A stretch of DNA of 20,350 nt from a virus, in IMG/VR virus record IMGVR_UViG_3300012202_000013, positions 1 to 20,350 of that record, one strand, 5' to 3'. The notes below the pieces were generated by a model. That model ran no database searches. It saw only the letters and a list, made by a program, of their open reading frames with translations, and had not been told where the DNA came from. The position numbers were made by a program, and so were the translations under genes. This document shows positions 14,204 to 20,319 of this stretch, piece by piece. Each line of letters begins with the position of its first letter. Within the stretch, counting starts at the first letter, position 1.

Positions 14204-15622
14204 ATGGATACTATTATTGAACAGGTAGCCAATGACCCGTCGGTAACCGGCTTTGGGTCTATGGACGCCGCTAAGGTGGACGCATTGCAAAAAGCCTTGG
14301 CAATTTCTCAAAACTACGGTACTACGGCGCCAAACGCACTTAGCAGCGGGTCTGCTTTGTCGGTTGAAGACTTAGATCGTACCTTGAAACTGGTCACCCA
14401 CGGTCTGGAACATCTTAAATTGTGGAAAGACATTATTAAAGAAAAAGTTACGCAAGCAGTGCACGAGTACAACGTTCAGAATAGCTACGGTCAAGAAGTT
14501 AACCCGTTCTTTGCAATGGGCGGAACTCCAGTAGCCACTGACGCGTTTTATCAACGTGAATTTATCCAAGTGAAGTATCTAGGAACTCAAGGACAAGTTC
14601 AACATAACTTGACTCTGATCCAAGCTGCTCACGGACCAGTTATCGCTCGCGAAGTTAAAAACAAAACAGTAGAACTTTTGGCCCGTAACGAGCGCTTTAT
14701 GTTTGAAGCCGATTCAAGTATCAATCCTCTTGAATACGACGGTATCAACAAACAAATTAGAGTTAAAATGGCGGAATCTCAATATAAATCTACCGCCTTT
14801 CAAGGCTTTGACACTGTCGGGGCCTCTAACTCCGTAGTTGTGGATGTTCGTGGCGTTTTCGACGATATCATTGCTGAAACAATTGCGCTGACTAACGTTA
14901 ATAACTTCGGCATGGCAATGGATATGTATCTTGGTACTGATATTCATTCTACGTTTTCTAGAAATTACTACTTGAAACAGCGTACCCTTCCTGGTGAAAC
15001 TTTGACATCTGGTAACAGAGTTAAGGAACATACAGGATCTATCGATTATCGTTTCAAGCCTAGTCTGTTTAATCGTCCTAGAATTTCCGCACTTGCCAGT
15101 GCCGTTTCTGCGTCTGCCGCTCCTACGTTGGCAACATTTGCAGTAGCTTCTGATGCTAATTCATCGTTTGGATCTGCAGATGCTGGTACTTACGGATATG
15201 TGCTTAGCTCGGTGTATTCTGATGGCGAAACGTTGCCGTCAAGTGAAATTTCTGGTGCGGTTGCCGCGGGACAGGGTGTTTCAGTTAGTCCTTCATACTC
15301 TGGATCTCCTTTGTACTTTAACGCGTTTCGATCTCCTAAAAATGGAGCTGGTTCAGGTTGGATGTTCATTGGACGCGTTAGACCTCTTGGTTCAGGTAAC
15401 CCAGTTTTGATTGACGAAAATGCTCAAGTTCCTGGATCAGGAAGAGCCTTTTTGTTGATGCACGACTCTGATGTACTTTGCTGGAAGCAATTAGGGTCAA
15501 TGATCAAGTATGATCTGGCAGTAACAGATACTTCTTACCGATGGTTACAGTTAATGTACGGAACCCCGTTGGTCTCTGCCGCCCGTAAGAATACAATTGG
15601 AGATAATATTACCCTTAGCTAG
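14204..15622 (+). CDS. Major capsid protein (HK97 fold) with surface insertion
   Basis: This 472-residue protein is the probable major capsid protein. It follows protease and scaffold genes, has the strongest expression signals in the window (own promoter, AGGAGA site, terminator behind it) and a distinct base composition. The N-terminus (MDTIIEQVANDPSVTGFGSM) and the C-terminus (YDLAVTDTSYRWLQLMYGTP) resemble capsid proteins of large tailed phages. Residues about 308-405 form an extra beta-rich segment with an FN3/Ig-like strand pattern (GTYGYVLSSVYSDGETLPSS), probably exposed on the capsid surface. The protein may be cleaved at its N-terminus by the protease, but the site is not visible. 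Confidence 0.85.
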   Translation: MDTIIEQVANDPSVTGFGSMDAAKVDALQKALAISQNYGTTAPNALSSGSALSVEDLDRTLKLVTHGLEHLKLWKDIIKEKVTQAVHEYNVQNSYGQEVNPFFAMGGTPVATDAFYQREFIQVKYLGTQGQVQHNLTLIQAAHGPVIAREVKNKTVELLARNERFMFEADSSINPLEYDGINKQIRVKMAESQYKSTAFQGFDTVGASNSVVVDVRGVFDDIIAETIALTNVNNFGMAMDMYLGTDIHSTFSRNYYLKQRTLPGETLTSGNRVKEHTGSIDYRFKPSLFNRPRISALASAVSASAAPTLATFAVASDANSSFGSADAGTYGYVLSSVYSDGETLPSSEISGAVAAGQGVSVSPSYSGSPLYFNAFRSPKNGAGSGWMFIGRVRPLGSGNPVLIDENAQVPGSGRAFLLMHDSDVLCWKQLGSMIKYDLAVTDTSYRWLQLMYGTPLVSAARKNTIGDNITLS

Positions 15623-17787: not shown

Positions 17788-17792
17788 CTCCT
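17788..17792 (-). promoter_or_regulatory. Ribosome binding site (AGGAG) for the gene starting at 17780
   Basis: On the minus strand AGGAG lies 7 nt before the ATG at 17780, at the very end of the upstream gene. It decides the start. Confidence 0.65.
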
Positions 17793-18804
17793 ATCCAAGA
17801 ATCTTTGTAATTCTATCTTGTACAGCTTGTGGGTAAACCCCATTGATTTTTAGTGTACAGTTATTTTTAGTCTCTTCTGGAGAAAGGTGATCATATCCTT
17901 TGGGGACGTACTCCTTGATGTATCTGATATAATCGCAGCAGACGTCTTCGACATCGTACGGGCGACCTCCAACTTCCTTACAAATTTCTGCCATACATTT
18001 TTCATAGTAGTCATTTTTCTTAGGATCTCCTTTTTCTCGTTCAAAAATCAATTCAAAAGACTTAATGCAGTTCGCACCGTAATAGCAGTGAGACTCAGGA
18101 TCAACAAGTCCTGGGTAGTATTCGGCGGTATCCATAACAAAAGCAGTAAGTACAAATTTCCATTGTTTGAAACCTCTATCTTTATGCCATTTACAAGAGA
18201 AGTCCACCGCATCCTTAATTCCTCGACGTTGTGTCTGAACGTACTTAACATAATCGATGATAAATTCTTTTCCAAAATTATCAAAATAATATTGCTGAGC
18301 TAATCTATATTTATCAGGATTTCCATTCTTAATGGATGGCGGTTGGTTGCCGACAGAGGTAACCATAGGTTCTTTACACTGGACAACGAATTTAATCATT
18401 AATTCAATCGTTCCGGTTTTGGCCAGTTCTTCTGATTTTGAATTTTTGTAACCATGCTCACTTGGATTTCTAGTTCCGTCTGGCAAGAACGTAGGTTGAA
18501 AACTTGCACCAGATCCTGTGAATCGATGAAATAGATGGATGAAATGAAACTCTTCAATCGGAAGGATGTCTGAATAATTTCCAAAACGAAATAAGAAAGC
18601 TGGATCTCGTGTTCCATGTAAATCTTCCAAGACCTTACTAAATCCAGCGAATCGTCGATTAACTGTATCATAGATGGTGATGTTGTCCATCAGCGGATCG
18701 TAGGCTTGAAACGTTGGTGGAACTAATTTTAAATTCTTTTCTTGGAGAATCTCAGCTTTATTATAATACTCAACGAAATCATTAAAGAATTCAGTCTTTA
18801 TCAT
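17791..18804 (-). CDS. DNA-base hypermodification-like protein (HMUDK_hel/aGPT-PPlase type)
   Basis: This 337-residue protein resembles the phage family that includes the helical domain of 5-hmdU DNA kinases and the alpha-glutamyl/putrescinyl thymine pyrophosphorylases, which act in thymidine hypermodification. Matching elements in order are PPTF..YDPLMDNITIYDTVNRR (29-51), a motif around FHFIHLFHRFTG (86-97), GF..WKF...FVMD (211-225), YGANCIKSFELIF (242-254) and a DVEDVCCDYIRYI end motif (284-296; the family often ends in D-x-x-x-x-LCEF-x-KY). No P-loop is present, so it is not a complete kinase. It overlaps the aldolase gene by 14 nt, within one operon. The assignment is by motif memory only; an unrelated helical enzyme remains possible. 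Confidence 0.5.
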   Translation of the reverse strand: MIKTEFFNDFVEYYNKAEILQEKNLKLVPPTFQAYDPLMDNITIYDTVNRRFAGFSKVLEDLHGTRDPAFLFRFGNYSDILPIEEFHFIHLFHRFTGSGASFQPTFLPDGTRNPSEHGYKNSKSEELAKTGTIELMIKFVVQCKEPMVTSVGNQPPSIKNGNPDKYRLAQQYYFDNFGKEFIIDYVKYVQTQRRGIKDAVDFSCKWHKDRGFKQWKFVLTAFVMDTAEYYPGLVDPESHCYYGANCIKSFELIFEREKGDPKKNDYYEKCMAEICKEVGGRPYDVEDVCCDYIRYIKEYVPKGYDHLSPEETKNNCTLKINGVYPQAVQDRITKILG

Positions 18805-19426
18805 TTGGACTTACTCCCGATGCCAATACAATTTGGCAAATATGTTCCAACCGTTCTATATGTTCAAATGCATCCCATGGTGATTTTCCTATCGCACAAA
18901 CTCCATGAGCTTTTTGACCGACGATGTCATAAGCTAGTTTTTCATTAACTCCACCTTGGTCAACGATCGTCATAGCTTGAAAAGTTGCTTTGGCCAATTC
19001 TGGTGATACTACCGGTAATACCGGAACTTCAGGTCCAACTCTAGTATACCGACTTACTTCTGGAAATTGAGAAGCTAATTCTTGAAGTGAAAATCCTCTG
19101 TGCATTGCTGCGATAATATGCGTTGGGTGAAGATGAACCACACTACGGGCTGACTTTCCGCTGAAGTCTACCGTCTGCAATAGCTTATGCATCTCTAATT
19201 CACCTGACGGTTTTCCTACATTTTCAGTCAACCACTCTAGCGTAGTCTGATTGTAATTTTTGATTTTGGCCTTCAGAACAGTCTCCGGAATAACTGTGAC
19301 TTTTCTGACCCCAGAAGGACTGATGTACAATGAATTGCCCAGACGAACAGAGATGTTTCCGTCACGCGTGGTAAGCCAACCGCGTTTATAAGCTTCTCGT
19401 AGGACATCTCCGATAGCAGTAATCAT
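18791..19426 (-). CDS. Class II aldolase/adducin-family enzyme
   Basis: This 211-residue protein is a class II aldolase of the fuculose-phosphate aldolase, ribulose-phosphate epimerase and MtnB dehydratase type. The active site is complete: GNISVRL (23-29), YISPSG (34-39), KPSGELEMH with catalytic E76, HLHPTH with zinc ligands H98 and H100, and AHG with the third ligand H174. The C-terminal helix (FEHIERLEHICQIV) matches the family. Members cleave, form or dehydrate sugar phosphates or hydroxy acids; the substrate here is not readable. Its start overlaps the stop of the PLP gene by 1 nt (TAATG) and its end overlaps the hypermodification-like gene by 14 nt, so the three proteins probably form one pathway. 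Confidence 0.85.
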   Translation of the reverse strand: MITAIGDVLREAYKRGWLTTRDGNISVRLGNSLYISPSGVRKVTVIPETVLKAKIKNYNQTTLEWLTENVGKPSGELEMHKLLQTVDFSGKSARSVVHLHPTHIIAAMHRGFSLQELASQFPEVSRYTRVGPEVPVLPVVSPELAKATFQAMTIVDQGGVNEKLAYDIVGQKAHGVCAIGKSPWDAFEHIERLEHICQIVLASGVSPNDKD

Positions 19427-20319
19427 TAGTCTCTAACCTCTCCCCAGGCTCTGGCAGAATCGGTACGATCTATAATAGTAAGATCATTCAATAAAGGTTC
19501 GCATCCGACATTCCATGCCCAGACGCGTGCTTCAGGATTCTGAGATTTATATTCTTTGGTATACTTCCAAATTTTTGCGTCGTACGAAAGAACTGTAGGA
19601 TACGGAGGATGATTAATCTTTCGTTCTGGAGTCTGGAATTCTACGGGTTCAATTATAGGTTCGGCTCTTCCTAGTTCTCCTGTCTTCATATTTCTTGCCA
19701 CGGTTACTGCGTAAAATTTGGTGTTGGGCCATCCAATTTGAAGACCTCTGACTAATACTCCAGTAGACGTCGCTACAAAACAAACATCAGGTGTTTTACC
19801 ATAAAATTCAGTGATGTTCATGGCTACTCTAGCCGCGCATGCAACCACTAATTCGTGCTTTAAACCTAGCGGTATAAATTTTGCACCATTAGCTTCAGCC
19901 CAGGCTTTCGCAATCCTGTTCAAATTAGGCATAGCCGCTACACGTCTAAATTTAGGAGTAGCTCCTCGTTCGATACATACTGCTTGATGCAAACTAATTT
20001 CTTTAGAGGATGGCATGAACAACACTACTTTTTTACCGTAGCGTTTAGCCACATTAAGAATTGATTGTCCGGCGAGTCCGACTCTAGGTTGTACATAGAC
20101 TAAGGTATCTTCTTTGATTGACTGAACCAATATATCTGCAAATCTGCATTTAGATCCATTGATTAAATCATCTCGAACTACCATAATTCCGTCATGTTCT
20201 ACAACGGTTGGAGTTCCGAGTGGATCAATCCAATCCTTAGTTGTTTCAATGAACCACTCTCGTCCTAGACGATCCAATTCTAAATGTTTACCATCAACGA
20301 TATGATTATTGTGACTCAT
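19426..20319 (-). CDS. PLP-dependent enzyme, fold type II (desulfhydrase/ACC deaminase-like)
   Basis: This 297-residue protein resembles the tryptophan synthase beta-type PLP enzymes, near ACC deaminase and D-cysteine desulfhydrase. Key elements are RDDLINGSKCRFADI with putative Schiff-base K57, the PRVGLAGQS loop (78-86), KKVVLFMPSS (96-105), an ERGA turn (117-120) and the phosphate-binding loop TSTGVLVRGL (184-193). Such enzymes carry out beta-elimination, replacement or deamination on amino acids. The length is slightly short for the family. The ATG is supported by GGAG 8 nt upstream. It is the first gene of the minus-strand operon. A role in preparing or trimming an amino-acid-derived group on DNA is an inference from its neighbours. 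Confidence 0.82.
   Translation of the reverse strand: MSHNNHIVDGKHLELDRLGREWFIETTKDWIDPLGTPTVVEHDGIMVVRDDLINGSKCRFADILVQSIKEDTLVYVQPRVGLAGQSILNVAKRYGKKVVLFMPSSKEISLHQAVCIERGATPKFRRVAAMPNLNRIAKAWAEANGAKFIPLGLKHELVVACAARVAMNITEFYGKTPDVCFVATSTGVLVRGLQIGWPNTKFYAVTVARNMKTGELGRAEPIIEPVEFQTPERKINHPPYPTVLSYDAKIWKYTKEYKSQNPEARVWAWNVGCEPLLNDLTIIDRTDSARAWGEVRD

Follow-up and report, generated by a model that had tools for sequence, protein, structure and literature searches.

Genes A, B, and C, which lie on the minus strand at the right end of the window, make up, with a probability of roughly 65%, the portion inside the window of a cassette for phage DNA hypermodification that would be cytosine-directed, as in the pathway proposed below. 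The window is the whole stretch of DNA that was analyzed; it is a complete IMG/VR record, a virus fragment of 20,350 bp, and its plus strand carries head and packaging genes. DNA hypermodification is supported by the predicted fold of C, by the membership of A in the family of M6 gp52, and by the hydroxymethylase gene found beside the cassette in related contigs. The computed basis comprises the gene linkage, the C fold, the A family, the dCMP-type Asp of the neighboring hydroxymethylases, and the SGNH fold of a further protein, U1. The description that fits the system best is a variant of amino-acid-type DNA hypermodification directed at cytosine, with no precedent in the literature searched.

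Gene arrangement and conserved neighborhood

Table 1. Cassette genes in the window
Gene	Position	Strand	Product
A	19426..20319	(-)	297 aa, predicted fold-type II PLP-dependent enzyme (PALP; PHROG 7093)
B	18791..19426	(-)	211 aa, predicted class II aldolase/adducin-type enzyme
C	17791..18804	(-)	337 aa, divergent all-helical protein with predicted aGPT-pyrophosphorylase / amino acid:DNA transferase / HMUDK_hel fold

Genes A and B overlap by 1 nt (TAATG), and B and C by 14 nt. These end-to-end overlaps, first described in a sequence-only reading of the window, were confirmed from the open reading frames and the sequence. The identical A-B-C order was found in two further contigs (L002 and L003, 61–78% identity), and this recurrence indicates that the arrangement is not due to chance. 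L002 also shares the capsid module of the window (ORF at 14204–15622, 74% identical), and its genes follow the order U1-A-B-C on a single strand. U1 would be the next cassette gene, located just beyond the end of the window. The trio recognized earlier is real; its SGNH-like partner U1, lying outside the window, had been missed.

Because the window is the entire virus record, the rest of the genome could be searched solely through relatives. In IMG/VR scans, C was found at 60 loci, B at 54, and A at 2, the patterns used for A being narrow; the C family thus comprises about 60 viral loci. When all loci were searched by tblastn, nearly all those with C also had A, mostly next door. ORF clustering revealed a constant neighborhood consisting of a hydroxymethylase of the thymidylate synthase (TS) family, a dCMP deaminase, C, often its paralog M7, A, and U1, followed by RecA and DnaB genes. 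A MazG-like gene was also present among the dNTP-pool neighbors of the cassette. After clustering at 90% identity, 25 independent C groups remained. A was located within 5 kb of C in 22 of the 25 groups and also in L007, where it had been hidden by ORF calling. Two contig groups had no A beside C, and in the group L047/L049 A was found elsewhere in the genome. U1 directly neighbored A or C in all groups in which this could be tested (23/23), the hydroxymethylase was present in 17/18, the dCMP deaminase in 15/18, and M7 in 14/19 testable groups. Five MAG contigs contained the same cassette genes. Mutase and glycosyltransferase-like genes were observed upstream of the cassette in L021, and the U1 homolog of Aeromonas phage 25 lies near a UDP-galactopyranose mutase gene (L121:5746–9017).

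Among all loci searched by tblastn, B occurred together with A and C solely in the window, L002, and L003. Its relatives are common in unrelated phages without A or C, often near sugar nucleotidyltransferase-like genes, and B was rejected as a core partner of the cassette because of these A- and C-free occurrences. Gene B is a clade-specific addition to the cassette, and the central role once assigned to the aldolase was not borne out, as B is present at only three C-bearing loci. M7 was not found in the window, G007, or G008 by a search that had no positive control. In the clade of the window, the aldolase may replace M7, giving a different product.

Families and predicted folds of the cassette proteins

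Gene A matched PALP in Pfam (E 4e-9) and phrog_7093 in PHROGs (E 7e-32). The same PHROG is matched by M6 gp52 (2e-159), which is encoded at 39.3–40.1 kb of the M6 genome, a few genes from the M6 HMUDK_hel gene (gp55) and TS gene (gp58) and thus inside the cluster for thymidine hypermodification of that phage. The Schiff-base Lys57 of A lies in the motif GSKCR and was invariant across 25 homologs. In its PLP loop TSTGV (184–188), Ser185-Thr186-Gly187 were invariant or nearly so in the same homologs. The A family ends with the motif PP[FY]P..YD.K.W....WN[VI]G. Pairwise BLASTP alone gave no significant match between A and M6 gp52; the two proteins have in common the PLP lysine context and the unusual C-terminal motif P[FY]P..YD.K.W.....WN[VI]G. 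By homology and the PLP lysine, A is predicted to be an M6 gp52-type PLP enzyme. In phages R6L (L119:18852–21272) and Mae-JY30 (L118:19105–20696), the PLP domain of the A family either is joined to an N6_N4 DNA methylase domain or lies beside one, and in R6L methylase-like motifs flank the PLP domain on both sides.

Gene B matched Aldolase_II in Pfam (E 7.5e-21). Its metal/acid site, formed by Glu76, His98-x-His100, and His174, is complete, with the motifs GELEMH (residue 75), HLHPTH (98), and AHGVCA (173). The Aldolase_II domain, together with the Glu and the three metal-binding His, identifies B as a predicted class II aldolase. The active sites of both enzymes are thus complete, as had been read from the sequence at the outset: Lys57 and the PLP loop in A, the Glu and three His in B.

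Gene C had no matches in Pfam or PHROGs, and a Pfam scan of 32 C members returned nothing below E 0.03 and nothing to a HMUDK_hel-type family. Its motifs are YDTVNRRFAGF (45), HRFTGSG (93), VTSVGNQPP (148), CYYGANC (240), and EDVCCDYIRY (286). An AlphaFold2 model of C, built from a 32-sequence alignment, had a pLDDT of 82.3 and a pTM of 0.82. When this model was compared with BFVD by Foldseek, the top three matches were close relatives, one of them named amino acid:DNA transferase. Seven named matches followed (ranks 4–8, 10, and 11), and then noise. The names at these ranks were amino acid:DNA transferase, aGPT-pyrophosphorylase clade 1, and 5-hmdU DNA kinase helical domain, with a PhiW-14 protein among them. 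The Foldseek probability was 0.92–1.00 for ranks 4–8 and 0.54–0.60 for ranks 10–11, and the TM-scores, normalized to C, were moderate (0.33–0.50 over all seven, 0.37–0.50 for ranks 4–8). Against PDB, Foldseek gave no match below E 1.3, the only matches being weak and HhH-glycosylase-like.

Aligned directly by hhalign, C and the canonical aGPT proteins gave no significant match (E 0.12–0.21). C aligned with its neighbor and paralog M7 at E 3e-4, and M7 with canonical aGPT proteins at E 0.003–0.006; all hhalign E-values refer to single pairwise comparisons. M7 had no useful matches in Pfam or PHROG, and tblastn of C and M7 against cultured phages found none. According to its model, C is a fold-level relative of the aGPT/amino acid:DNA transferase family and not a sequence-defined member of it, and it probably works like these transferases. 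The earlier description of the 337-residue protein as hypermodification-like had no library match to rest on; the fold search bore it out, as the predicted structure falls with the hypermodification families.

U1 is a Rossmann-like and SGNH-like protein with invariant GDSH, ID.RHH, and S.H motifs. In Foldseek, its model (pLDDT 82.6) matched esterases and acyltransferases of the GDSL/SGNH type (best E 7e-6). U1 homologs were found in 43 phage records, 38 of which are Aeromonas phages. In phage 44RR, U1 is fused to a HMUDK_hel-like domain in the 795-aa ORF233c (L120:7953–10340); this second domain matched HMUDK_hel at E 0.0036 and aligned by hhalign with canonical aGPT proteins at 8e-4. Phages 44RR, 31, and 25 possess gene 42 and no glucosyltransferases, and it was not known in 2010 whether such phages bear other hmC modifications (Petrov et al., PMC2993671). 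The 44RR fusion independently ties U1 to an aGPT-type domain and to 5hmC. ORF233c is a candidate for the DNA modification of 44RR.

The target base and the competing explanations

No hydroxymethylase gene is present in the 20-kb window itself, and the assignment of cytosine rests on relatives. In the TS family, Asn at the position of E. coli residue 177 specifies dUMP and Asp specifies dCMP, and this position has been tested against modified-cytosine contigs (PMC8670742). All 39 hydroxymethylases neighboring C carried Asp here. The same dCMP-type Asp was found in the hydroxymethylase of G008, the contig of L003 and the closest cassette relative, and in 44RR gp42. Asn occupies this column in td and, if a one-residue shift is allowed, also in M6, ViI, and PhiW-14. 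The Asp in all neighboring hydroxymethylases, including that of G008, makes 5hmC the likelier handle, and the target of the modification is probably cytosine and not thymine, judging from this residue. G008 additionally contains dUTPase_2-like and thymidylate-kinase-like genes beside the hydroxymethylase. The search for hydroxymethylase, kinase, and dUTP-handling genes suggested in the sequence-only reading, run in the relatives, thus recovered the hydroxymethylase, of dCMP type, and the dUTPase_2-like gene, but not the kinase.

The 5hmdU DNA kinase family was taken as phrog_800, recognized from its position within the M6 cluster. Its E-values ranged from 1e-42 to 1e-70 in M6, ViI, and PhiW-14, whereas 15 cassette contigs, mostly fragments, gave weak generic P-loop matches or none. 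Searches with AAA_33 and for T4 gp1-type DNMK, the latter found only in 44RR and 25, likewise yielded no conserved cassette kinase. With no dedicated DNA kinase found in the cassette contigs, the activation step known for 5hmdU appears to be missing. Two other candidates were rejected: the AAA_28 gene downstream of C in L002 as the cassette kinase, because it occurred in no other record searched, and a carbamoyltransferase as the true 5hmC decorator, because, of 15 cassette contigs tested, a single one had Carbam_trans_C. The cassette contig G011 encodes a domain of this kind (PF16861, the carbamoyltransferase C-terminal domain) at G011:55004–55501; the known 5hmC carbamoyltransferase belongs to the same family. 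M6 gp54 (L190:3186–3749; NC_007809 41685–42248) is annotated as "terminase small subunit" and belongs to phrog_800, which bears that name. It sits in the hypermodification cluster, also matches a thymidylate-kinase PHROG, and is probably a misannotated P-loop kinase.

These results bear on hypermodification of thymidine by the route of M6, ViI, and PhiW-14, where 5hmdU in DNA is phosphorylated and the thymine methylene would receive an amino acid through C. The families of C and A are otherwise known from that pathway, and the neighboring dCMP deaminase would supply dUMP. Given the dCMP-type Asp at 39 of 39 loci and the contrast between strong phrog_800 matches in the three phages and their weakness or absence in the cassette contigs, we consider this route unlikely. 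Of the DNA base modification originally proposed for the trio, hypermodification is thus supported (C fold, A family, linked hydroxymethylase), whereas the thymidine route and a central aldolase are not.

Modification of free 5hm-dCMP or 5hm-dCTP before polymerization, by enzymes that never touch DNA, would fit the dNTP-pool genes that neighbor the cassette (dCMP deaminase, MazG-like, hydroxymethylase); however, aGPT-type transferases and M6-type PLP enzymes are known to act on DNA post-replication. The 5hmC carbamoyltransferase does accept 5hmdCTP as well (PMC8670742), but action on DNA has been described for the 5hmdU kinase and the steps that follow it (PMC6449724), and we regard a free-nucleotide route as improbable. 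The third alternative is a role in plain metabolism. The Pfam names PALP and Aldolase_II, and the frequency of B relatives in phages lacking A or C, often near sugar nucleotidyltransferase-like genes, would suit a salvage pathway for amino acids or sugars that combines an enzyme resembling threonine dehydratase with an aldolase of the fuculose/methylthioribulose type and has no connection to C. The DNA-modification fold of C, the place of A in the M6 gp52 family, the homologs of A that neighbor or are joined to DNA methylase domains in Mae-JY30 and R6L, and the hydroxymethylase linkage all argue against such a role, which we judge very improbable.

Proposed pathway and comparison with known systems

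In the cytosine-directed cassette, the dCMP-hydroxymethylase would most likely produce 5-hydroxymethyl-dCMP, which would be incorporated into viral DNA. C, as a divergent amino acid:DNA transferase, would then join an amino acid, or a similar nucleophile, to the 5-hydroxymethyl group, and A, as an M6-gp52-type PLP enzyme, would reshape the attached amino acid by decarboxylation, elimination, or replacement. U1 could activate the hydroxymethyl group, or acylate or deacylate the product, and in the clade of the window B could add a carbon unit to the donor or the side chain, or remove one. Here we infer the cytosine substrate in this phage, the amino acid donor, the order of the steps, and the roles of U1 and B. 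A more far-reaching version is tentative and on balance doubtful: a widespread, undescribed kinase-free class in which 5hmC in viral DNA receives an amino acid, U1 activates the hydroxymethyl group, the PLP enzyme reshapes the product, and the aldolase extends or cleaves it in this clade, with the U1-transferase pair explaining the modification of 44RR and 31.

The clusters of M6, ViI, and PhiW-14 combine 5hmdU, a kinase, an aGPT-PPlase/amino acid:DNA transferase, and PLP and other trimming enzymes, and thymine hypermodifications shield phage DNA from bacterial defenses. The cassette shares with these clusters a TS-type hydroxymethylase, a transferase of the same predicted fold, and a PLP enzyme from the PHROG of M6 gp52. 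It differs from them in the dCMP type of its hydroxymethylase, in that the phrog_800 DNA kinase was not found, in the additional SGNH-like U1, the second paralog M7, and, in one clade, the aldolase, and in that its C protein is beyond Pfam detection. T4/44RR-type 5hmC systems depend on gene 42 and decorate the base by glucosylation, arabinosylation, or carbamoylation. They resemble the cassette in having a dCMP-hydroxymethylase with the same Asp, and U1 is present in 44RR, 31, and 25; in contrast, the tailoring enzymes of the cassette are not glycosyl- or carbamoyltransferases.

An amino acid also ends up on phage cytosine in the CmoX/CmoY system, which yields carboxymethylcytosine-glycine; its handle is a carboxymethyl group, which a DNA methyltransferase introduces using Cx-SAM, and the route also involves an ATP-dependent ligase (PMC12783734). 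Such a carboxymethyl/ligase route is not proposed for the cassette. The 5hmC carbamoyltransferase system has the same upstream module, with a TS carrying Asp177 and dCMP deaminase and MazG-like neighbors (PMC8670742), whereas the set of decorating enzymes in the cassette is different.

Taken together, the analysis suggests that amino-acid-type DNA hypermodification has a cytosine branch, carried by dozens of uncultured phages. In cultured Aeromonas phages such as 44RR, the fusion of U1 with a HMUDK_hel-like domain is a concrete candidate for the modification. New modified bases would lead to new enzymes for DNA labeling and to new targets in the arms race between phages and bacteria.
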